Shown here in pieces: positions 3,807 through 59,783 of a stretch of DNA of 60,107 bases. The notes under the pieces were generated by a model. That model made no database searches. It was not told where the DNA came from and worked only from the letters and a program-made list of their open reading frames with translations. The stretch is from Candidatus Zixiibacteriota bacterium (GTDB lineage: Bacteria > Zixibacteria > MSB-5A5 > GN15 > FEB-12): positions 1 to 60,107 of the forward strand of contig JBFMGC010000015.1 in the NCBI GenBank assembly GCA_040752815.1. The letters run 5' to 3'. The position numbers were made by a program, and so were the translations under genes. The first letter of the stretch is position 1; the number at the start of each line of letters is the position of its first letter.

Positions 3807-6410
3807 TTACGGTATGACGGCCAGTTTTCCCCAGCGCGGCTCGCCGGAGTCTATTTCGACCTTGAAGTAGTAAATGCCGACCGCAACCAGGTCGCCTTTG
3901 TCGTTGCGGCCGTCCCAGGTGACCCCCTGCGCTCCCTGAGCAGGGTAGATCCCGGCCGCATAGGCGACATTATCGATCGGCGTGGCCACCAGGTTCATGG
4001 CAAAGTCATAGACTTCCAGGGTGACATTCCCGGCCGTTTCAACCGTGAAGTGAAAATCGACCACCTGCCCCTGCCCCGGCCGGAACGGCACCGGGAAGGC
4101 GTAGACTTCGCCCGCGGCGGCGGCAGAATCGACGCGCTGGAAGAGCTCTTGCTTGCCGAGGTCGCTTCGGTTGAGCCTGACTATTCCGTCATCGGTTCCA
4201 ACCCAGAGAGTCGAATCAACCAGTCCGACGCTATAAACTGGCGTGCCCGGCGCCACAAGAACCTGACCGGAAGAAACATCGGTGAAATCCACGGTCCCCC
4301 ACACGGTGTTGAGGCTATCCAAAGGTCCCTCGTTGAGCAAGAGGCCGCGATTTGATGCCGATAGAATCGTGTCGCCGACGAACTCGAAATTCCAGGCGAA
4401 GTCGGCATCGTAAACCGTCTCCCAACGCAGCACCCCGCCCGGGTAGTAATCGCCGACCGATATCCCCTGCCCGCCGAAACCGGCCGGTCTGGCTCCGGCC
4501 CAGATACGCGCCACCGAATCCGCCTCACGATATTGAACCGCCAGAGCGGGAATAAAATCACCGGCCAGCCCACCGAACGAATTGAGATATGAGTGATTGA
4601 CCACGAAATCGGCGGAAAGCGTATCGGTGTTGGCGCGATAGATCTTGAAAGTCCGGCCCCGGTTGTGCGAGATGGCGATACCATCGGAGGTACCGAATAT
4701 CACCGTGTCCTGGCGCACCTCCATGACCGTGACAGAATCCTGATCGAGATTGTCGATAACGGTGCTGTCGGGATCATCGTTCACATACTGCCGGGCGGAG
4801 AAGAAATTGGTCATCTCCTGGCCGCGCGGGCTGAACCAGATAGCGGTCGCGCCCACCGCAAACACAGTATCGCTAAAGAAGCTGACATCGTAAACGTCTA
4901 TGCCACGCCGCAGGTAAGTCCACCCGCCGGAGGCGTTTCGTCGACCCACCATTGGACGGCCGCTTACTGTGCGGGGGCGGTTGACAGTCCACACTATGGT
5001 TGAGTCATAGGTCCCCGGCACAGTGGCATTCTCGAACCGCTGCACTTTCACACGGACAATCCGGGTCGACGTGGAGTCGGTGTCCGGAAAATCATCATGA
5101 GTCGCCGACAAAATGTTTCCATCGCCGTCCAGGGCCAAGGTGATCAGACCCGAGTCCGTGCCAACAAGGAGCGTATCTTCGAAGACGGTTAGGGCGTTGG
5201 CAGTGCGCAGGGCAGGCTCGGAGAAATACAGATCGAGCGCAACCCCTGACCAGAATTGCCCCGTATCGGCCGACACAAACAGTCCCGCCACCTGCACGGC
5301 GGCGTAAATCCGTCCGTTCATCTGGGCAAAGTCGGATACTACTCGCCCAACCCCGGTCGCCCAGGGACCGATCCTCTGAGCGAAGCTCTCGCCTCGGTCA
5401 TCGGATACATACAGGCCTGTGGACCCGCCGGTGTTAGGATTCACCGTACCGACAAACAGACGATCCCCGACACTGAGTATCGAGGCCGCCCGCGGACCTG
5501 AGACCGGAAGTCCGTCCACGGCGAATCGCGACACGATCGGCCCGCCGGCAGCAGAACCGAGGCTTACACCGGTTTCCCCGGCGATATACAAGCGCGATCC
5601 ACCACCCGTAGAGCACGTATCACATAAGGCGATATCATGAATCCAGTGTGAATACAGCTTGTTCCGCGGAGGCGCAAAAACATATTGGAATACTCCTGAC
5701 GCTGTGCCGGCCCACAGAAATATCGAGTCACCATGCGAGGTATCCGCCACGCACGAGAAGTACCGGTTGCGCAGCGACGGCGGCTCGTTGGGAAGATAGT
5801 ACTGGATGGAATCGACCCGGGACGCGAAAATCCGTCGCCAGTGAATTCCGCCGTCCTGCGAGGCCAGAAGGCCGCCTGCGAACGCGGCGGCAAACAGCCA
5901 GTCGGTCGTGTCATCGACGCGGTTGTTCAAAAAGCCGGGATCATAGTGGCCGGTGATGTCGAAAATGGTGCGGTCTCCGCCGATCACGTACGGGATATTG
6001 AGGCCGTTCGGCCCGAAATCGAGTGTCGTCCAGGTCAGACCGTCATCGTCGGAATAACTGAGGCCGTCGGACAGGGTCATTAGCTGCCCCTGAATGTAGT
6101 CGTTGTGATTGCTGGCTATCCAGACGCGCCGTCCGATGGAAAAGATGGCTGAGAGGTTGTCCGAGGGAAGTCCGCTGGCCGAGTTATTGACGGACCAATG
6201 GGCGCCGTTATCGAAACTGTAATTGACCCCTCTGCCGGTCGCCAGCCATACGCCAAGGGAGTCGGTGCCATGCGCGATAACGTCGACAGCCACTTTGGAT
6301 GCCACGCCGGCGAGACGACCGGCCTCGACATCAAAGGTCTCGGCAACTTCAGCGAGAAGCGGCACGGCGGACACCACAAGTATCACGAATAAATTGTAGA
6401 TCAGTTTCAC
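3807..6410 (-). CDS. Large secreted propeller-like protein with FlgD-like C-terminal domain
   Basis: A GTG at 6410 is the chosen start (867 aa): GAGG lies 6 nt upstream and a signal peptide (VKLIYNLFVILVVSAVPLLAE) follows at once. The longer frame reaching 6500 only adds an unlikely Arg/His-rich leader. Most of the protein consists of repeated short blades such as RVWIASN, LFVGTVNP, LLVGTDSGLITL and LWVGTDDGIVRL, typical of BNR/sialidase- or two-component-regulator-like beta-propellers. The last ~90 residues (AFPVPFRPGQG, then TWDGRNDKGDLVAVGIYYFKVEI) form a FlgD Ig-like tail of the kind used for export and surface attachment in FCB bacteria. It heads the operon with two PorV-like barrels. 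Specific function is unknown. Confidence 0.8.
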   Translation of the reverse strand: MKLIYNLFVILVVSAVPLLAEVAETFDVEAGRLAGVASKVAVDVIAHGTDSLGVWLATGRGVNYSFDNGAHWSVNNSASGLPSDNLSAIFSIGRRVWIASNHNDYIQGQLMTLSDGLSYSDDDGLTWTTLDFGPNGLNIPYVIGGDRTIFDITGHYDPGFLNNRVDDTTDWLFAAAFAGGLLASQDGGIHWRRIFASRVDSIQYYLPNEPPSLRNRYFSCVADTSHGDSIFLWAGTASGVFQYVFAPPRNKLYSHWIHDIALCDTCSTGGGSRLYIAGETGVSLGSAAGGPIVSRFAVDGLPVSGPRAASILSVGDRLFVGTVNPNTGGSTGLYVSDDRGESFAQRIGPWATGVGRVVSDFAQMNGRIYAAVQVAGLFVSADTGQFWSGVALDLYFSEPALRTANALTVFEDTLLVGTDSGLITLALDGDGNILSATHDDFPDTDSTSTRIVRVKVQRFENATVPGTYDSTIVWTVNRPRTVSGRPMVGRRNASGGWTYLRRGIDVYDVSFFSDTVFAVGATAIWFSPRGQEMTNFFSARQYVNDDPDSTVIDNLDQDSVTVMEVRQDTVIFGTSDGIAISHNRGRTFKIYRANTDTLSADFVVNHSYLNSFGGLAGDFIPALAVQYREADSVARIWAGARPAGFGGQGISVGDYYPGGVLRWETVYDADFAWNFEFVGDTILSASNRGLLLNEGPLDSLNTVWGTVDFTDVSSGQVLVAPGTPVYSVGLVDSTLWVGTDDGIVRLNRSDLGKQELFQRVDSAAAAGEVYAFPVPFRPGQGQVVDFHFTVETAGNVTLEVYDFAMNLVATPIDNVAYAAGIYPAQGAQGVTWDGRNDKGDLVAVGIYYFKVEIDSGEPRWGKLAVIP

Positions 6411-53437: not shown

Positions 53438-54706
53438 CTAATTCTCGGCTACCACCTTGCCGCGCTTAATCACTTTAGAGACCAGGTTGACCCCATAATG
53501 ATAGGGCAATTCACGATAGTCCTGCATATTCCAAATCAAGAGGTCTCCGAGCAGCCCCGGCACGAGCCGCCCGATCTTGCCGGCCCGGTCGAGCGCCGCG
53601 GCGGCGTTGACCGTAACCGCACTGAGGGCCTCTGCGGTGGACATTTTAAGCTGAAGCACCGCGAGCGAGATGATGATCCCCAAAGATTCAGTGTAACTTG
53701 AGCCGGGATTGCAATCGGTGGCGAGGGCCACGATGACCCCGGCGTCAATCAGTTTACGGCCCGGGGCGTACCTGCGTCCCCCCAGCGAGAAAGTCGTTCC
53801 GGGCAATAAGACAGCAACCGTGCCCGACTGCGCCAGCGCCTTTACACCGGCGTCCGAGATATACACCAAATGATCCGCCGAGGTTGCCCCCATTTCGGCA
53901 GCCAGCTCCGAGCCACCACTCGAGGTAAGCTCGTCGGCGTGGAACCTGAGCTTCAGGCCGGCGTCGCGCGCCGCCCCCTGAATACGCCGTGATTCGTCGA
54001 GCGAAAAGACACCCTCTTCACAGAAAACGTCGGAGTATTCCGCCAGCTCCTGCTTCGCGACCAAAGGGATCATCTCTTCGATAACGAGGTCTATGTATGC
54101 TTCACGATCTTCTCGGAATTCGTCAGGAATTTCATGGGCCCCAAGAAATGTTGGCACCAGATCGATTGGGTGCACCGAGTTCAGATCACGGATGACCTCG
54201 AGAGACTTGGTCTCCGCTTCGAGCGACAGGCCATAGCCTGACTTGGCTTCGATTGTAGTCGTACCGTAGGCCAACATGGTGTCCAGCACCAGGCGCGTAC
54301 GTTTTTTGAGCTCTTCCCGGTCGGCGGCGCGGAGGTCTCGCACCGAGGAGCGAATGCCACCACCGCTGCGGGCAATCTCCATATACGATTTACCCTGCGC
54401 CCGTAATTCGAATTCACGCTCGCGCGTGCGAGCGAACACCGGATGAGTGTGCGGATCGATAAGCCCGGGCGTAACCACCGCGCCGCCGGCGTCTATCACC
54501 TCGCAGACTTCTGACAAGCTGGCCTTACCCTGAACTTCGGTCCACGGTCCGACCGCGAGAATCTCCTCGCCCGCAACCGCGACACCCCCGTTTTCAACCA
54601 TGCCCAGATCGTCCATGGCATCGCCGGTGCGCGGCACCGACCCGGCCATGGTGATTAGTTGGCCGATGTTTTTGATTAGCAGGGTGGCTTTTTTTTCGCG
54701 CGGCAT
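53438..54706 (-). CDS. hutI: Imidazolonepropionase
   Basis: A 422-residue amidohydrolase that opens imidazolone-5-propionate to N-formimino-L-glutamate, the third step of histidine degradation. Metal and substrate motifs are visible: VTPGLIDPHTHPVFARTREREFELRAQGKSYMEIA (in parts IDPHTHPVFA and GKSYMEIARSGGGI), LRFHADELTSSGG and LATDCNPGSS. It is 33 bp upstream of lptE and about 260 bp downstream of hutU, with a repeat in the gap. hutH and the formiminoglutamate-processing genes are not in the window. Confidence 0.95.
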   Translation of the reverse strand: MPREKKATLLIKNIGQLITMAGSVPRTGDAMDDLGMVENGGVAVAGEEILAVGPWTEVQGKASLSEVCEVIDAGGAVVTPGLIDPHTHPVFARTREREFELRAQGKSYMEIARSGGGIRSSVRDLRAADREELKKRTRLVLDTMLAYGTTTIEAKSGYGLSLEAETKSLEVIRDLNSVHPIDLVPTFLGAHEIPDEFREDREAYIDLVIEEMIPLVAKQELAEYSDVFCEEGVFSLDESRRIQGAARDAGLKLRFHADELTSSGGSELAAEMGATSADHLVYISDAGVKALAQSGTVAVLLPGTTFSLGGRRYAPGRKLIDAGVIVALATDCNPGSSYTESLGIIISLAVLQLKMSTAEALSAVTVNAAAALDRAGKIGRLVPGLLGDLLIWNMQDYRELPYHYGVNLVSKVIKRGKVVAEN

Positions 54707-54772
54707 CGCCCGAATATACCCCCGCGGAGCGAGGGGTCAATTAGAATATGTTGTTTGGAGACTCGTTAACCC

Positions 54773-54798
54773 GGCTTCGACAAGCTCGGCCTGACACC
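54773..54798 (-). repeat. Degenerate GAGCTTGTCGAAG palindromic element
   Basis: The minus strand reads GAGCTTGTCGAAG inside a partly palindromic context, the same core class as the perfect element at 8241-8269. It lies just upstream of hutI in the hutU-hutI gap. Confidence 0.55.
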
Positions 54799-54862
54799 TG
54801 CTGCGGGGCGAAGCGAAAACTCGGTGGGCGATCAGCCGACTGCGGATCGTCGCCAGTTCCAT

Positions 54863-54951
54863 TTCGTGGGCGGCCCGCCGCGGCGGGTCCTCGTCTGCCC
54901 CTTGAACCGTACTCGACGTAGACCGGGCAGACCAGGAGGTCAGCCGCGCAC
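54863..54951 (+). repeat. Dispersed 92-bp structured repeat, copy 3
   Basis: The most diverged copy. It keeps CGTGGGCGGCCCGCCGCGG, TCCTCGTCTGCCC and GGGCAGACC...GAGGTC, including a perfect GTCTGCCC/GGGCAGAC 8-bp stem, while the loop between is different in sequence but similar in length. It lies in the gap between hutU and hutI. Confidence 0.7.
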
Positions 54952-54966
54952 AACACTAGCGGAGCA

Positions 54967-56622
54967 TCATTTCCCCAACATCGGGATCTTGATCTTATGC
55001 TTTCGCGCGAAGGCTTTGGCGTCTTTGTAACCGGCATCGGCGTGGCGCGCGATTCCAATTCCCGGATCATTGGTGAGCACACGATTCAACCGTTCAGACA
55101 TCTCTTTCGTGCCGTCGGCGACTATGACCATACCGGCATGAATCGCGAGACCGATCCCCACTCCTCCACCGTGGTGAATTGACACCCAGCTCGCGCCGGA
55201 CACCGCGTTAAGCAACCCGTTCAGCAGCGGCCAGTCAGCAATAGCGTCGGACCCGTCGAGCATCGCCTCGGTCTCGCGATACGGCGACGCCACCGAGCCG
55301 CAGTCGAGATGATCGCGCCCGATCACGACAGGCGCGGATATCTTGCCCTTCTTGATATAGGTGTTCAGAATCTCGCCGAACTGCGCCCGCTCGCCATAGC
55401 CCAGCCAACACACTCGTGCCGGCAGACCCTGAAACGGAATCCGCTCACGCGCTTTGGTGATCCAGCGCACGAGCGACTTGTTCTGTTTGAACGTTGCGAG
55501 AATTATATCATCGGTGACGGCAATGTCTTTCGGATCACCGGAGAGAGCCGCCCAACGGAACGGCCCACGTCCCTCACAAAACAACGGCCGCACATATGCA
55601 GGCACAAATCCGGGATAGGAAAACGCGGTCTTGAGTCCGCCTGTCTCAGCTTGCCCGCGAAGGTTGTTGCCGTAGTCGAACACGATCGAACCGGCGCGCA
55701 GAAACTTCACCATAGCGTCGCAATGCTTAACCATCGACTCATACGATCGCTGGATATACGCCTTGGGGTCGTTCTTGCGAAGCTGGCCTGCTTCCTGCAT
55801 TGTCAGCCGTTCGGGGATGTAGCCGTTTAACTCGTCATGGGCCGATGTCTGATCGGTGACAATATCCGGCACAATGCCCCGGCGATAAACTTCCGGGAAC
55901 ACCTCCGCGCAGTTGCCGATCAGGCCAACTGAAATCGGCTCGCCCGATTTTTGGTGCTCTTTGATCAGCTTGAGCGCCTTGTCCAGCGCTTTCACTTTGA
56001 CATCGCAGTAACCGATCTTGACCCGACGATCAATCCGCGCCTCATCGATTTCGACTACCAGTATCGATGCCCCCGCCATGGTGCCGGCCAGCGGCTGCGC
56101 GCCGCCCATCCCCCCCATGCCACCGGTCAGAATCCATCGGCCGGTTAAATCGCCCTTGAAATGCTGATCACCGGTGGCCGCGAATGTTTCGTAGGTCCCC
56201 TGGATGATCCCCTGCGCGCCGATATAAATCCAGCTTCCGGCAGTCATCTGCCCAAACATGGTCAGGCCACGGTCTTCGAGATCACGGAAATTCTCCCAGG
56301 TCGCCCATTTCGGCACCAAATGGGCGTTGGCGATCAGAACGCGCGGGGCATACTCGTGAGTACGGAAAATGCCCACCGGTTTGCCCGACTGCACTAACAG
56401 GGTTTCATCGTTGCCCAGTGATTTGAGCGACTTGACAATGGCGTCATAGCACCGCCAGTTGCGGGCCGCCTTGCCGGAACCGCCGTAGATGATAAGCTCT
56501 TTGGGCTTCTCGGCGACTTCAGCGTCGAGGTTGTTGTTGAGCATGCGGAGGGCGGCTTCCTGCGCCCAGCCTTTGCAGGACAGAGTTGTACCGTGGGCGG
56601 CCTTGACAACTTTTGGGGGCAT
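54967..56622 (-). CDS. hutU: Urocanate hydratase
   Basis: A 551-residue NAD+-dependent enzyme converting urocanate to imidazolone propionate. The ATG at 56622 is chosen: AAGGAG lies just upstream and [11 protein letters not shown]...[12 protein letters not shown] is the family start; the long frame reaching 57216 is antisense to the acetyltransferase gene. Motifs include [35 protein letters not shown] (cited in parts), [14 protein letters not shown] and the active-site [14 protein letters not shown]. Its promoter and an inverted repeat lie upstream. hutI is downstream on the same strand after a repeat-bearing gap. Confidence 0.96.
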
Positions 56623-56655
56623 TAGTAACTCCTTGGTAACCTTCGTGCCGGTGGG

Positions 56656-56685
56656 AATATACGCGACACAAGCCGGAGTAGTCAA
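56656..56685 (-). promoter_or_regulatory. Promoter of hutU
   Basis: On the minus strand, -35 TTGACT (56680-56685) and -10 TATATT (56656-56661) are 18 bp apart. A TSS near 56649 gives a leader of ~27 nt ahead of the AAGGAG site and the ATG at 56622. Confidence 0.7.
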
Positions 56686-56703
56686 ACATTGGATTCCGGC
56701 TTG
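56669..56703. promoter_or_regulatory. Inverted repeat flanking the hutU -35, possible operator
   Basis: CAAGCCGGA (56669-56677) and TCCGGCTTG (56695-56703) form a perfect 9-bp inverted repeat with a 17-bp spacer that contains the -35 TTGACT. A dimeric regulator bound here would block hutU transcription. No HutC-like gene is in the window. Confidence 0.5.
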
Positions 56704-56736
56704 CGGCAAGGGCGTTTTCGGCGTATTATGGACGCC

Positions 56737-57279
56737 ATGATCGAGAAAATCGCGGGGCGGCAGATCAATCTTCGGCGGATCAGACGTGCCGATGCACCGT
56801 CGCTGGTCAAACACATCAACGACATCACGGTCGCCCGCAACACGTTCATTCCGCATCCCTACGGCCTGAAAGACGCGCATGCTTTCATTCGCACCAATCA
56901 CCTGAATTGGCGCAAGGGCGAACGGTATGGTTTCGGGATCGAAGACCCCGCGACCGGCGAGATTATCGGCGGGATTGGTTTGGAGATGATCAGCCGGAAG
57001 CATCGATGTTTCGAGCTTGGGTATTGGCTGAGTCGGAAGTATCGCGGGAGAGGGATGGCGACCGAGGCGGTACGGCTGGCGGTTGGATTTGGATTCAAGG
57101 AGCTTAAACTGGTTCGGATTCAGGCGCATGTGTTCACCGGCAACGATGTCTCGGTGCGGGTGCTGGAGAAATGCGGCTTCACCTTTGAGGGGACGGCGCG
57201 CAAGCGAATCAAACACCGGGGCCGCTGGCGGGATTTGATGATGTATTCGATATTGCGGGGGGAGTGGCGCCCACAGTGA
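56737..57279 (+). CDS. GNAT-family acetyltransferase (RimJ/RimL-like)
   Basis: A 180-residue N-acetyltransferase. The fold is complete: N-terminal strand and helix ([20 protein letters not shown]), a central [19 protein letters not shown], the acetyl-CoA loop [17 protein letters not shown] (Q/RxxGxG/A-type), and the end [22 protein letters not shown]. The ATG at 56737 is taken, with 56728 (MDAMIEK) as an alternative. It is divergent from hutU; the target (ribosomal protein N-terminus, antibiotic or small molecule) cannot be told. Confidence 0.88.
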
Positions 57280-57445: not shown

Positions 57446-58315
57446 TTGAAGAAACTCGGAGCGAACAACCAAGAGCTCTTCCACAGAGATACACCGATTA
57501 AGAGGAGGACTGCCAGCAACGCTTCCCGAGCCAATTCACTCGACGGTAAGACTTGGACGCGCTATTCGATCTCCGTTTGGAGCGACATACGAAAGACACG
57601 CGAAGAGACTGCTCTAGGTCATCCAGCAATGTTTCCAGCGGAATTGCCTTCGCGCCTCATTCAAATGTTGATGAGGGAGAACGACAGTGTCGTACTGGAT
57701 CCTTTTTTGGGCGTAGGCAGCACTCTACTCGCCGCTCAGCAGCAGGGCAAGCAAGGGATCGGACTTGAGATATCCTCTGACTACTGCGATATCGCCCGTG
57801 GCCGTCTAAAACAGACGGGAGTTTTCGAACGGGAAGTTGATCGGTGTGAGGTATACAAAGCCGATGCCCGTGATCTACTCACGTATGTGCAACCCAGTTC
57901 TATCGATCTTTGTGTCACATCGCCACCTTACTGGAACATTCTGCTTGAGAAACGCACCGCCGACTACAAGGAACGCCGTGACTACGGCTTGGAGGAAGCA
58001 GACCTCGGCAAAATACTAAAATACGCTGACTTCTTGGCGGCACTAGAGGAAATATTTCGAGATGTCTATGAGGTATTGCGACCCGGTGCTTTTTGTTGCG
58101 TCATAGTCATGGACCTCCGCAAGAAAAACGTGTTTTATCCGTACCACAGCGATGTGGCCATTTTCATGCAGAAGATCGGATTTATTTTTGACGACATCGT
58201 AATTTGGGACAGGCGCCACGAATACAACAACATGCGCCCTCTTGGATACCCGTACGTTTTCCGGGTCAACAAGGCACATGAGTATATCCTTCTGTTCGCA
58301 AAGCCGCGGAGTTGA
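57446..58315 (+). CDS. Site-specific DNA methyltransferase, probably N4-cytosine type
   Basis: A 289-residue DNA methyltransferase, first gene of a three-gene cassette. The AdoMet loop motif X/I is HPAMFPAELPSRLI then DPFLGVGSTLLAAQ (~residues 60-100), with the acidic GLEIS after it. The catalytic motif is TSPPYW (~residue 154), whose Ser-Pro-Pro form is usual for N4-cytosine enzymes. Motif order X-I-IV is unlike the more common IV...X-I order. The region after motif IV is only ~130 residues and no separate target-recognition domain is obvious. The TTG start is tentative. It ends 2 bp before the next gene. Confidence 0.88.
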   Translation: MKKLGANNQELFHRDTPIKRRTASNASRANSLDGKTWTRYSISVWSDIRKTREETALGHPAMFPAELPSRLIQMLMRENDSVVLDPFLGVGSTLLAAQQQGKQGIGLEISSDYCDIARGRLKQTGVFEREVDRCEVYKADARDLLTYVQPSSIDLCVTSPPYWNILLEKRTADYKERRDYGLEEADLGKILKYADFLAALEEIFRDVYEVLRPGAFCCVIVMDLRKKNVFYPYHSDVAIFMQKIGFIFDDIVIWDRRHEYNNMRPLGYPYVFRVNKAHEYILLFAKPRS

Positions 58316-58317
58316 CA

Positions 58318-59262
58318 ATGGGGGCGTTTCGCCTGGATGACTACATCGACATTGACGTAGCATATCTGGCAGGTCTAATAGTCGCTCGCGGGACACTCGA
58401 ATCGGCCCCTCAAAGGCGACTAGTCGTCCAATTCCCACATTCCAGTCTCGAGGCCGTAGGCATCTCATCTTCGTTCGACCAAGAACAGTCTATCCGCCTC
58501 GGTCTCAATGACATAAGAGAACGCATGGCTGAACTGTTGGATACGGACATCAAGATTGTGCGGCATACAAGCAGTGTCGACTTCGTGGTGACATTTATAC
58601 GCAACAGCATGATCTGGCGCAACATCCTACTGCTTACCGCCAACGCAACTAGTTTTCCGTATTTCAAAGTCCCAGCGATCTTCTTTGACCGTGAGCTCCC
58701 AACGGACTACAAAAGGGAGTTTCTGAAGGGCTACGGGGATACAGCCGGAAATGTGCGCAAGTCCAACGTCTACGCCGACGGCCGGCACCGCGTACGGCTT
58801 GATGTACTGAACTATCCCACAAACTGGGACGTACCTGTACAGCTTTGCATGTTGTTGCAGGAACATGTTGGGATTCCGGTACAGTTGATCACCTGGGGCC
58901 ATCCAAACCTCGGCCGTGAATTCCGCGAGCACCAGATAAACATATTCGCCGACGCCTACCTGAAAATCGGCTTTTCCTTTGATCATAAGCAGATCATACT
59001 TCAAGAGCTTGCAGCAGCTAACGGCCGTCATAGACCGTGCGTCGAGCCAAGGGAATGCCCCGGCCTGCGTGCACTGCGCGGTCAAAAACCCCATGACCCG
59101 GAAGAAGACGATTCTGATAGACTCGATCCTCGTCTCTTCGGTAAGCACTTTAACAGCTACTGGCAAATCTGCAAGGCCATTGGTTGCGAGCGTGTTCCCC
59201 CGGACGACGGTCAAACTCAGCTAGAATTCGTCGACGACTCTGAACCTGCCGAAGATCAATGA
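58318..59262 (+). CDS. LAGLIDADG-fold protein with degenerate catalytic motifs
   Basis: A 314-residue protein, second in the cassette. The ATG at 58318 has GGAG 6 nt upstream, inside the methyltransferase end; a TTG at 58312 is an alternative. Two motifs ~118 residues apart look like a single-chain LAGLIDADG pseudo-dimer: YLAGLIVARGTL (residues 16-27) and, after VPAIFF, FLKGYGDTAGNV (135-146). The positions of the two catalytic acids (the D/E just before the final Gly) are Arg24 and Ala143, so cleavage by this fold looks lost. The C-terminal ~90 residues hold spaced Cys pairs and an acidic stretch. It overlaps the nuclease gene by 4 nt. DNA binding is inferred. Confidence 0.7.
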   Translation: MGAFRLDDYIDIDVAYLAGLIVARGTLESAPQRRLVVQFPHSSLEAVGISSSFDQEQSIRLGLNDIRERMAELLDTDIKIVRHTSSVDFVVTFIRNSMIWRNILLLTANATSFPYFKVPAIFFDRELPTDYKREFLKGYGDTAGNVRKSNVYADGRHRVRLDVLNYPTNWDVPVQLCMLLQEHVGIPVQLITWGHPNLGREFREHQINIFADAYLKIGFSFDHKQIILQELAAANGRHRPCVEPRECPGLRALRGQKPHDPEEDDSDRLDPRLFGKHFNSYWQICKAIGCERVPPDDGQTQLEFVDDSEPAEDQ

Positions 59263-59783
59263 AATATTCGCGCGAAGATCAAATGTATCCTCACGTTTCG
59301 GGCTGGTTGGAAGCTTTTCTTAAAGACAGACACAGACATGCCGAGATCAGGGTCATCGATGCGTCCCGGAAAAGCTTATCAAGACTGATTACAGATTACG
59401 GTTTTCAGGATCGAGTTCCTGCGGAATGGGTTTCTTGGGACATTCAGGTAGATGTGGTGGGATTCGTGCTCCAGAAACAGCAGATGCTGATGGCGTTCGT
59501 CGAATGCAAAGTCGGGTTTCTTACTTTGAGAGATCTTAGCCAGTTGCTCGGCTATTCGCGTGTCGCCTTGCCACGGTACTCCTTTCTCGTGTCCCCTGAG
59601 GGCCCGTCTGATTTTCTGACTTCATTACTGAGGACATATAACCGGTCCGACGTGTTGCGATACAACTTCCCCATCGGTCAAACGCCCTGGTCAATTGCAG
59701 TTGGTCGCTGGATCGGTCAGGCGAAGAATCTTGATTGGTCATCTGTGATCTCTGATGATGTCATGTTCCTTGGGCAACTCTAG
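59259..59783 (+). CDS. Small PD-(D/E)XK-type nuclease
   Basis: A 174-residue protein, third in the cassette. Pattern: N-terminal helix with an acidic residue (YPHVSGWLEAFL), then DIQVDVVGF (Asp65), strand LMAFVECKVG giving E82-x-K84, and LRDLSQLLGYSRVALPRY, the usual helix and Gln after the catalytic strand. This is a plausible PD-(D/E)XK core, with the first motif being an isolated Asp. No DNA-recognition domain is evident, which fits a partner supplying specificity. It starts within the stop of the LAGLIDADG gene (ATGA), so the two are coupled. Confidence 0.78.
   Translation: MKYSREDQMYPHVSGWLEAFLKDRHRHAEIRVIDASRKSLSRLITDYGFQDRVPAEWVSWDIQVDVVGFVLQKQQMLMAFVECKVGFLTLRDLSQLLGYSRVALPRYSFLVSPEGPSDFLTSLLRTYNRSDVLRYNFPIGQTPWSIAVGRWIGQAKNLDWSSVISDDVMFLGQL

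Follow-up and report, generated by a model that had tools for sequence, protein, structure and literature searches.

The 60,107-nucleotide stretch of DNA analysed here (the window) carries, on its plus strand, a DNA methyltransferase gene followed by two genes that we call R1 and R2:

57446..58315, plus strand: DNA methyltransferase, 289 aa, PF01555 N6_N4_Mtase, TSPPYW motif
58318..59262, plus strand: R1, a 314 aa LAGLIDADG-fold protein without both catalytic acids (R24, A143); proposed target-reading subunit
58351..58395, plus strand: helix of LAGLIDADG motif 1 and start of strand 1, residues 12-26 (family alignment; DSSP helix 12-24)
58387-58389, plus strand: codon of R24, within motif 1
58702..58749, plus strand: helix of LAGLIDADG motif 2, residues 129-144 (family alignment; DSSP helix 129-143)
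58738-58740 and 58744-58746, plus strand: codons of D141 and A143, within motif 2
58750..58992, plus strand: R1 domain 2, residues 145-225, with an invariant polar cluster
59259..59783, plus strand: R2, a PD-(D/E)XK nuclease, 174 aa (E6, D65, E82-x-K84, Q95)

The operon is tight: the methyltransferase gene ends at 58315, upstream of R1, and the R2 start and the R1 stop codon share 4 bp (ATGA). Translated from the ATG at 58318, the R1 ORF contains R24, G25, D141, A143 and G144; an alternative start is a TTG at 58312. The G+C content of the operon (57446-59783) is 49-53%, compared with 57.4% in the window, which suggests horizontal acquisition. Nearby genes encode an amidohydrolase (53438-54706, minus strand), a urocanase (54967-56622, minus strand) and a GNAT acetyltransferase (56740-57279, plus strand), perhaps part of a histidine-degradation cluster (53438-57279). 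R1 and R2 are hypothetical proteins in the four annotated records examined.

The methyltransferase matches Pfam PF01555 (E 7.5e-35) and PADLOC MTase_II (1.5e-45), with TSPPYW at residue 158. We take SPPY to denote m4C enzymes and NPPY or DPPY to denote m6A enzymes; by its motif, the window methyltransferase is probably an N4-cytosine enzyme.

R1 belongs to a widespread family

Queried as a single protein, R1 retrieved no relatives from two collections, one of genomes and one viral. tblastn with R1 reached relatives of 26-27% identity on two plasmids and in two gut phages. Alignment-based searches found two further genomes in the window's phylum (3 of 132, counting the window's own), two viral contigs with R1 in the viral collection and, in a scan of a species-genome collection, 155 R1 relatives, so that the family is widespread. 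Its carriers comprise bacteria, archaea, phages and plasmids. Host names in the scan records include Zixibacteria, Chloroflexi, Poribacteria, Clostridia, Bacilli, Bacteroidales, Spirochaetes, Patescibacteria and several archaea, and the R1 matching two Zixibacteria records is identically present in genomes of the window's class, which makes this phylum the probable source of the window. Cultured carriers include Lactiplantibacillus plantarum P9, Anaerotignum neopropionicum DSM 3847 and Merdimmobilis hominis An559.

The best 80 of the 155 scan relatives were kept, the remaining 75 lying outside the counts below. Loci were fetched by R1, except for four viral ones obtained via R2, whose distinct members are within the final set. 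Removal of 10 loci with a duplicate R1 reduced 98 loci to 88, including the window. The alignment used for structure prediction comprised 64 sequences, again with the window included, and entropy counts exclude two truncated loci (L015 and L042).

The R1 model has a LAGLIDADG fold

The R1 model (pLDDT 89.2, pTM 0.89) follows the order helix-strand-strand-helix-strand-strand-helix twice, which corresponds to the two alpha-beta-beta-alpha-beta-beta-alpha repeats of the LAGLIDADG fold, each opened by a motif helix. Foldseek returned 58 PDB matches at E <= 0.001, and the best 50 of these 58 are all LAGLIDADG proteins. The best structural match among those listed was the TliVMA intein (Z 16.3, rmsd 3.3, 182 residues aligned), alongside PI-SceI (Z 15.8, rmsd 3.9, 190 aligned), PI-PfuI (Z 15.7, rmsd 3.0, 188 aligned), I-Tsp061I (Z 15.6, rmsd 3.2, 186 aligned), I-DmoI (Z 14.2, rmsd 3.1, 167 aligned) and WhiA (8dy7, Z 14.2, rmsd 3.5, 185 aligned; 3hyi, Z 12.6, rmsd 3.5, 170 aligned). 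The predicted structure confirms a pseudo-dimeric LAGLIDADG fold for R1, in line with the dimer-like fold named by the first-pass annotation.

By themselves, sequence profiles back this fold weakly. Pfam assigned 0 families to the window R1 (E <= 1) and, across 64 family members, gave matches to Hom_end in 8, LAGLIDADG_3 in 2 and LAGLIDADG_2 in 1, all weak. PHROGs yielded 0 families for 6 proteins, and a PDB sequence-profile search gave one chance match, to a ribosomal protein (E 0.016), with two chance matches (E 2.5) in a second search.

No helix-turn-helix (HTH) was found in R1: Pfam reports no such family and the model shows no helical bundle after residue 240. Beyond the last core helix, which ends at 238, only short helices are predicted (261-264 and 281-287). 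The LAGLIDADG sheet must therefore do the reading, if anything does.

Both catalytic acids are absent throughout the sampled family

In LAGLIDADG homing endonucleases an acid ends each motif helix. The first-pass annotation had claimed that both are replaced in R1, by Arg24 and Ala143, with the motifs ending VARG and DTAG while LAGLI and FLKG are kept. Translation confirms this (AYLAGLIVARG for motif 1, FLKGYGDTAG for motif 2), these and the Gly anchors align gap-free and in register, and the pattern extends to the 88 distinct relatives. The motif-1 acid column holds N in 48, R in 34, K in 5 and one gap at a contig end (0/87 acidic); the motif-2 column holds T in 57, A in 30 and G in 1 (0/88 acidic). 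The two states are linked: N+T occurs in 48 loci, R+A in 29, K+T in 5, R+T in 4, R+G in 1 and gap+A in 1. A basic residue fills the motif-1 position in 39 of the 87 proteins; this would keep out a metal and favour phosphate contact.

We weighed whether R1 could be an active LAGLIDADG endonuclease whose acid has shifted, with D141 as the candidate, or whose alignment is off. D141 is invariant (88/88), as this reading would expect. Across relatives motif 1 mostly ends in GNG or ARG, and the window protein has no nearby acid there, which counts against it. So does the register against I-DmoI. A profile comparison aligned VAYLAGLIVARGTL to SAYLLGLIIGDGGL, which places R24 on D21; a forced global alignment, weak in overall score, set EFLKGYGDTAG on AFIKGLYVAEG, which places A143 on E117 and D141 on V115. 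Profiles of domain 2 only did not align reliably to I-DmoI (13 columns at E 0.083 locally, 5 columns globally). The motif-2 register is therefore supported by the low-score two-domain global alignment together with the family alignment. Since D141 aligns to a non-acidic I-DmoI residue, the acids appear lost rather than shifted, and since helix residues two apart face differently, D141 is unlikely to replace the missing acid. We rejected the shifted-acid reading on this register and regard an active LAGLIDADG enzyme as highly improbable.

No acid-bearing relative was found among the 88 distinct R1 proteins, so that the loss looks ancestral to everything sampled; the 75 further relatives could differ. 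Judged from the alignment, the sampled family as a whole has lost both acids. R1 is nonetheless maintained without its acids under strong purifying selection, as indicated by a dN/dS of 0.020-0.137 in the 27 of the 40 closest pairs for which it was computable (in the other 13 the synonymous distance was not computable, presumably through saturation). It had been proposed that selection keeps the DNA-binding fold while cleavage is lost; the purifying selection and the family-wide loss of acids support this, although DNA binding by R1 and its lack of cleavage are inferred.

R1 is linked, and occasionally fused, to a PD-(D/E)XK nuclease

The operon order is conserved, with one or more DNA methyltransferases, then R1, then R2. 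R2 is present in 85 of 88 loci, always on the strand of R1, and lies within 100 bp of it or is fused to it in 83 of 88. Of the three loci without R2, L016 reaches a contig end; L035, whose R1 looks intact, and L042 have downstream sequence yet no R2. In one locus, L036, R1 and R2 are separated by a 237-aa ORF (4891-5601) that matches no Pfam family; no other insertion of this size was seen.

In the R2 family alignment, E6, D65, E82, K84 and Q95 are invariant or near-invariant, in the layout of a PD-(D/E)XK site, and all five are kept in 82 of 91 aligned R2 stretches. The nine exceptions involve L023, split fragments in L031 and L068, a decayed second copy in two pieces in L024, and the second copies in L060 and L078. 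The copy in L024 (L024:2321-2912) is decaying upstream of an otherwise complete system. Pfam gave no match for the window R2. Its model (pLDDT 94.1, pTM 0.90) gave weak Foldseek results, with nothing at E <= 0.001 (best, 2vld, a Pyrococcus repair endonuclease, 0.014; PaqCI, 0.019). Among the structural matches listed, which are mostly PD-(D/E)XK enzymes with modest but consistent scores, the best was PaqCI (Z 8.6, rmsd 3.8, 128 aligned), and the others included BsaWI (Z 8.0, rmsd 3.9, 143 aligned), FokI (Z 7.2, rmsd 3.9, 118 aligned) and the BspD6I small subunit (2p14, 186 residues; Z 7.0, rmsd 3.6, 119 aligned). R2 thus has the residues of a known nuclease active site, as found in a subunit of Type II restriction enzymes, on a PD-(D/E)XK-like model of modest scores. 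The separate nuclease invoked by the first-pass annotation is therefore present, linked to R1 across loci and with its catalytic residues kept.

In L060 (2720-4342) and L078 (4013-5635), which come from an uncultured bacterium and a Gastranaerophilales bin, a single chain of 541 aa unites R1 with an R2 whose site is intact. A second R2 gene follows each fusion with the site altered to K-D-N-S-E and presumably dead; the methyltransferases lie near the fusion on the opposite strand. The fusions, together with this second, dead-site R2, support R1-R2 contact and hint that R2 works as a pair.

We consider it likely that the operon encodes a restriction-modification system whose restriction enzyme has two subunits, a dead LAGLIDADG protein, R1, that reads and R2 that cuts. 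R1 would descend from a LAGLIDADG endonuclease that lost its acids in the distant past, with Arg, Asn or Lys now in place of the motif-1 acid and Ala or Thr in place of the motif-2 acid. Having kept the saddle-shaped pseudo-dimer, it would read the recognition sequence in a sequence-specific manner; bound there in a complex with R2, it would bring the nuclease to the site, and R2 would cut the DNA. The adjacent methyltransferase would mark the same sequence and so spare host DNA.

Conservation differs between the two domains of R1

The domain-1 sheet (26 positions) has a mean column entropy of 1.94 bits, against 1.03 bits for the domain-2 sheet (24 positions). Within domain 2, R147, N150, R158, N169, W170, H195, N197, E204, H205, Q206 and K224 are kept in 85-88 of 88 proteins; R158, N169, W170, H195, E204, H205, Q206 and K224 are, like D141, invariant in 88/88, and R147 and N150 are found in 85/88. 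A variable domain-1 sheet and a conserved domain-2 sheet are compatible with DNA-reading surfaces under selection. Most simply, domain 2 would recognise a fixed half-site or dock R2, and domain 1 would read a more variable half.

The polar residues of domain 2 seem too invariant for a mere specificity surface, which counts against R1 as a pure reader, and the cluster leaves room for another activity. R1 may thus not be dead: a non-canonical site in domain 2 (D141, R158, H195, N197, E204-H205-Q206, K224) could cut one strand and R2 the other, a division like that of BtsI or BsrDI. The conserved residues counted above all lie in domain 2, and the loss of the second R2 site in L060 and L078 leaves one R2-type site per pair. 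We know of no nuclease family with such a residue set on a LAGLIDADG fold, and the same residues could equally bind a shared half-site or dock R2. There is a precedent in the heterodimeric BtsI, which divides the strands between its subunits (PMC2909958), but BtsIB cuts with a PD-EXK site of its own, unlike the site proposed here. We regard a second cutting site in R1 as unlikely.

Methyltransferases change around a constant R1-R2 pair

A methyltransferase profile matches in 87 of 88 loci; the exception, L015, begins inside R1 at a contig end. A methyltransferase beside a nuclease, the arrangement of Type II restriction-modification, is thus present and linked, and would be cognate. EcoRI-type adenine and m5C enzymes are both matched in 30 loci, fused to each other in L002, L004 and L005. 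We surveyed methyltransferase-motif ORFs in 53 of the 88 loci, namely 28 R-type loci (the window's group), 16 of the N/K-type m4C and fusion group, and 9 with an m5C match and no EcoRI-type match. Outside the window's class, loci pair an adenine with a cytosine methyltransferase. In the N/K group, 15 of 16 have an NPPY or NPPF adenine ORF together with an SPPY ORF, while L089, which has little upstream sequence, has SPPY only; all 9 loci of the m5C group have an NPPY ORF beside the m5C match. The adenine enzyme of L006 matches the Eco57I and TaqI_C families. In the R-type group, a separate SPPY ORF occurs in 24 of 28 loci, 22 of which have no other methyltransferase-motif ORF over 180 aa; in L039-L041 DPPY and SPPY are joined in one enzyme, and L038 is truncated. 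In L010 (790-1401) the SPPY ORF is 203 aa rather than about 289, beside full-length R1 and R2, which may reflect a frameshift.

R1-R2 pairs occur with an NPPY m6A and an SPPY m4C-type enzyme in L006, L050, L054, L064, L082, L084, L087 and L093, and with EcoRI-type m6A and m5C enzymes in L002, L004, L005, L007 and L047-L049. It is as if the cytosine mark were interchangeable between pairings. When the EcoRI+m5C class (30) is set against the N/T m4C class (9), class-fixed differences occupy only 1 of 26 domain-1 and 1 of 24 domain-2 sheet positions; that R1 hardly changes when the methyltransferases do suggests a shared target. Two observations count against a shared target: within classes the sheet of domain 1 is itself variable (mean 0.74-1.34 bits), and fixed differences rise to 3/26 in domain 1 and 6/24 in domain 2 when the window's class is compared with the EcoRI+m5C class. 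We tentatively entertain, at rather less than even chances, that the R1 proteins of bacteria, archaea, plasmids and phages have kept essentially one and the same target half-site while their guarding methyltransferases were repeatedly swapped, the domain-2 cluster being a fixed reading head or an R2 dock. The swaps would then involve m4C-type or m5C enzymes on the cytosine, and EcoRI-type or TaqI/Eco57I-type enzymes on the adenine. Counting against the two-subunit reading, the single methyltransferase of the window fits poorly with the asymmetric site that a non-identical pseudo-dimer would read, except if that site is a palindrome or carries its mark on one strand.

These loci also bear on whether R1 stands outside the restriction enzyme, as a WhiA-like transcription factor or a methyltransferase specificity subunit. 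Small control proteins are common in restriction-modification operons. In WhiA, a transcription factor, the LAGLIDADG domain has lost its catalytic residues and a C-terminal HTH binds DNA specifically, as described in PMC3781837, so that a LAGLIDADG protein devoid of catalytic residues is already known to act as a regulator. The parallel with WhiA (DUF199) drawn by the first-pass annotation holds for the loss of acids in a host-kept LAGLIDADG domain; it fails at DNA binding, which WhiA achieves through the HTH that follows this domain, whereas none was detected in R1, which is linked to a nuclease instead. In L060 and L078, moreover, the fusion partner of R1 is R2 and not a methyltransferase, and the position of R1 immediately before R2 is kept even as the types of methyltransferase vary. 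A role as regulator or modification-side partner is therefore quite improbable.

Comparison with known systems

Like I-DmoI, PI-PfuI, I-Tsp061I and the TliVMA intein, R1 is predicted to be a single-chain pseudo-dimer (Z about 13-16), and its motif 1 closely resembles the I-DmoI motif apart from the acid. In contrast to these enzymes, R1 is without both acids and lies in a methyltransferase-nuclease operon, not in an intron or intein; we rejected a homing endonuclease or mobile-intron identity since R1 is a free-standing gene in a conserved operon.

In organisation the operon resembles BtsI, BsrDI and BspD6I, of Type IIT, which similarly combine a large recognition subunit with a small, low-specificity PD-(D/E)XK subunit and methyltransferases. 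Heterodimers are listed as Type IIT in a 2014 review of Type II enzymes (PMC4081073). BtsI consists of a recognition subunit with its own PD-EXK site (P57, D58 and E72 in BtsIB) and a small helper subunit (PMC2909958). In R1 the LAGLIDADG fold spans residues 5-249, leaving no room for a PD-(D/E)XK domain, and a BtsIB-like large subunit was rejected for this reason. As to the two methyltransferases of Type IIT systems, which serve one strand each of an asymmetric site, the window has one, and the other classes have an adenine and cytosine pair. BslI was set aside by description: the zinc motifs given for it in PMC4081073 have no evident parallel in the window R1. Homing-endonuclease folds also serve restriction in the GIY-YIG and HNH enzymes Eco29kI and KpnI (PMC4081073); there the shared domain is an active nuclease, whereas in R1 the acids are gone and cutting appears outsourced.

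The catalytic groups in the available text of the 2014 review are PD-D/EXK, HNH, GIY-YIG, PLD and half-pipe, with 0 occurrences of LAGLIDADG (PMC4081073). LAGLIDADG motifs were once suggested for GmrSD and a reanalysis did not confirm them (PMC4619093). In the accessible parts of two further papers, LAGLIDADG is mentioned only as homing enzymes (on BsaXI; PMC11997821), and homing-endonuclease folds are said to occur in phage restriction with no LAGLIDADG case named (PMC3943268). No LAGLIDADG-fold restriction enzyme or system of this kind was found in the literature searched, which had REBASE and most subscription papers outside it. We conclude that the operon most likely encodes a Type II-like restriction-modification system with a dead LAGLIDADG reader, of a kind not found in that literature.

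A LAGLIDADG scaffold that serves restriction only as a reader, with cutting left to a partner, would fill a gap among the Type II groups, and the R1 family would represent a second route of LAGLIDADG domestication beside WhiA. Engineered meganucleases use the LAGLIDADG scaffold, so a natural separation of reading from cutting would be directly useful, and testable.
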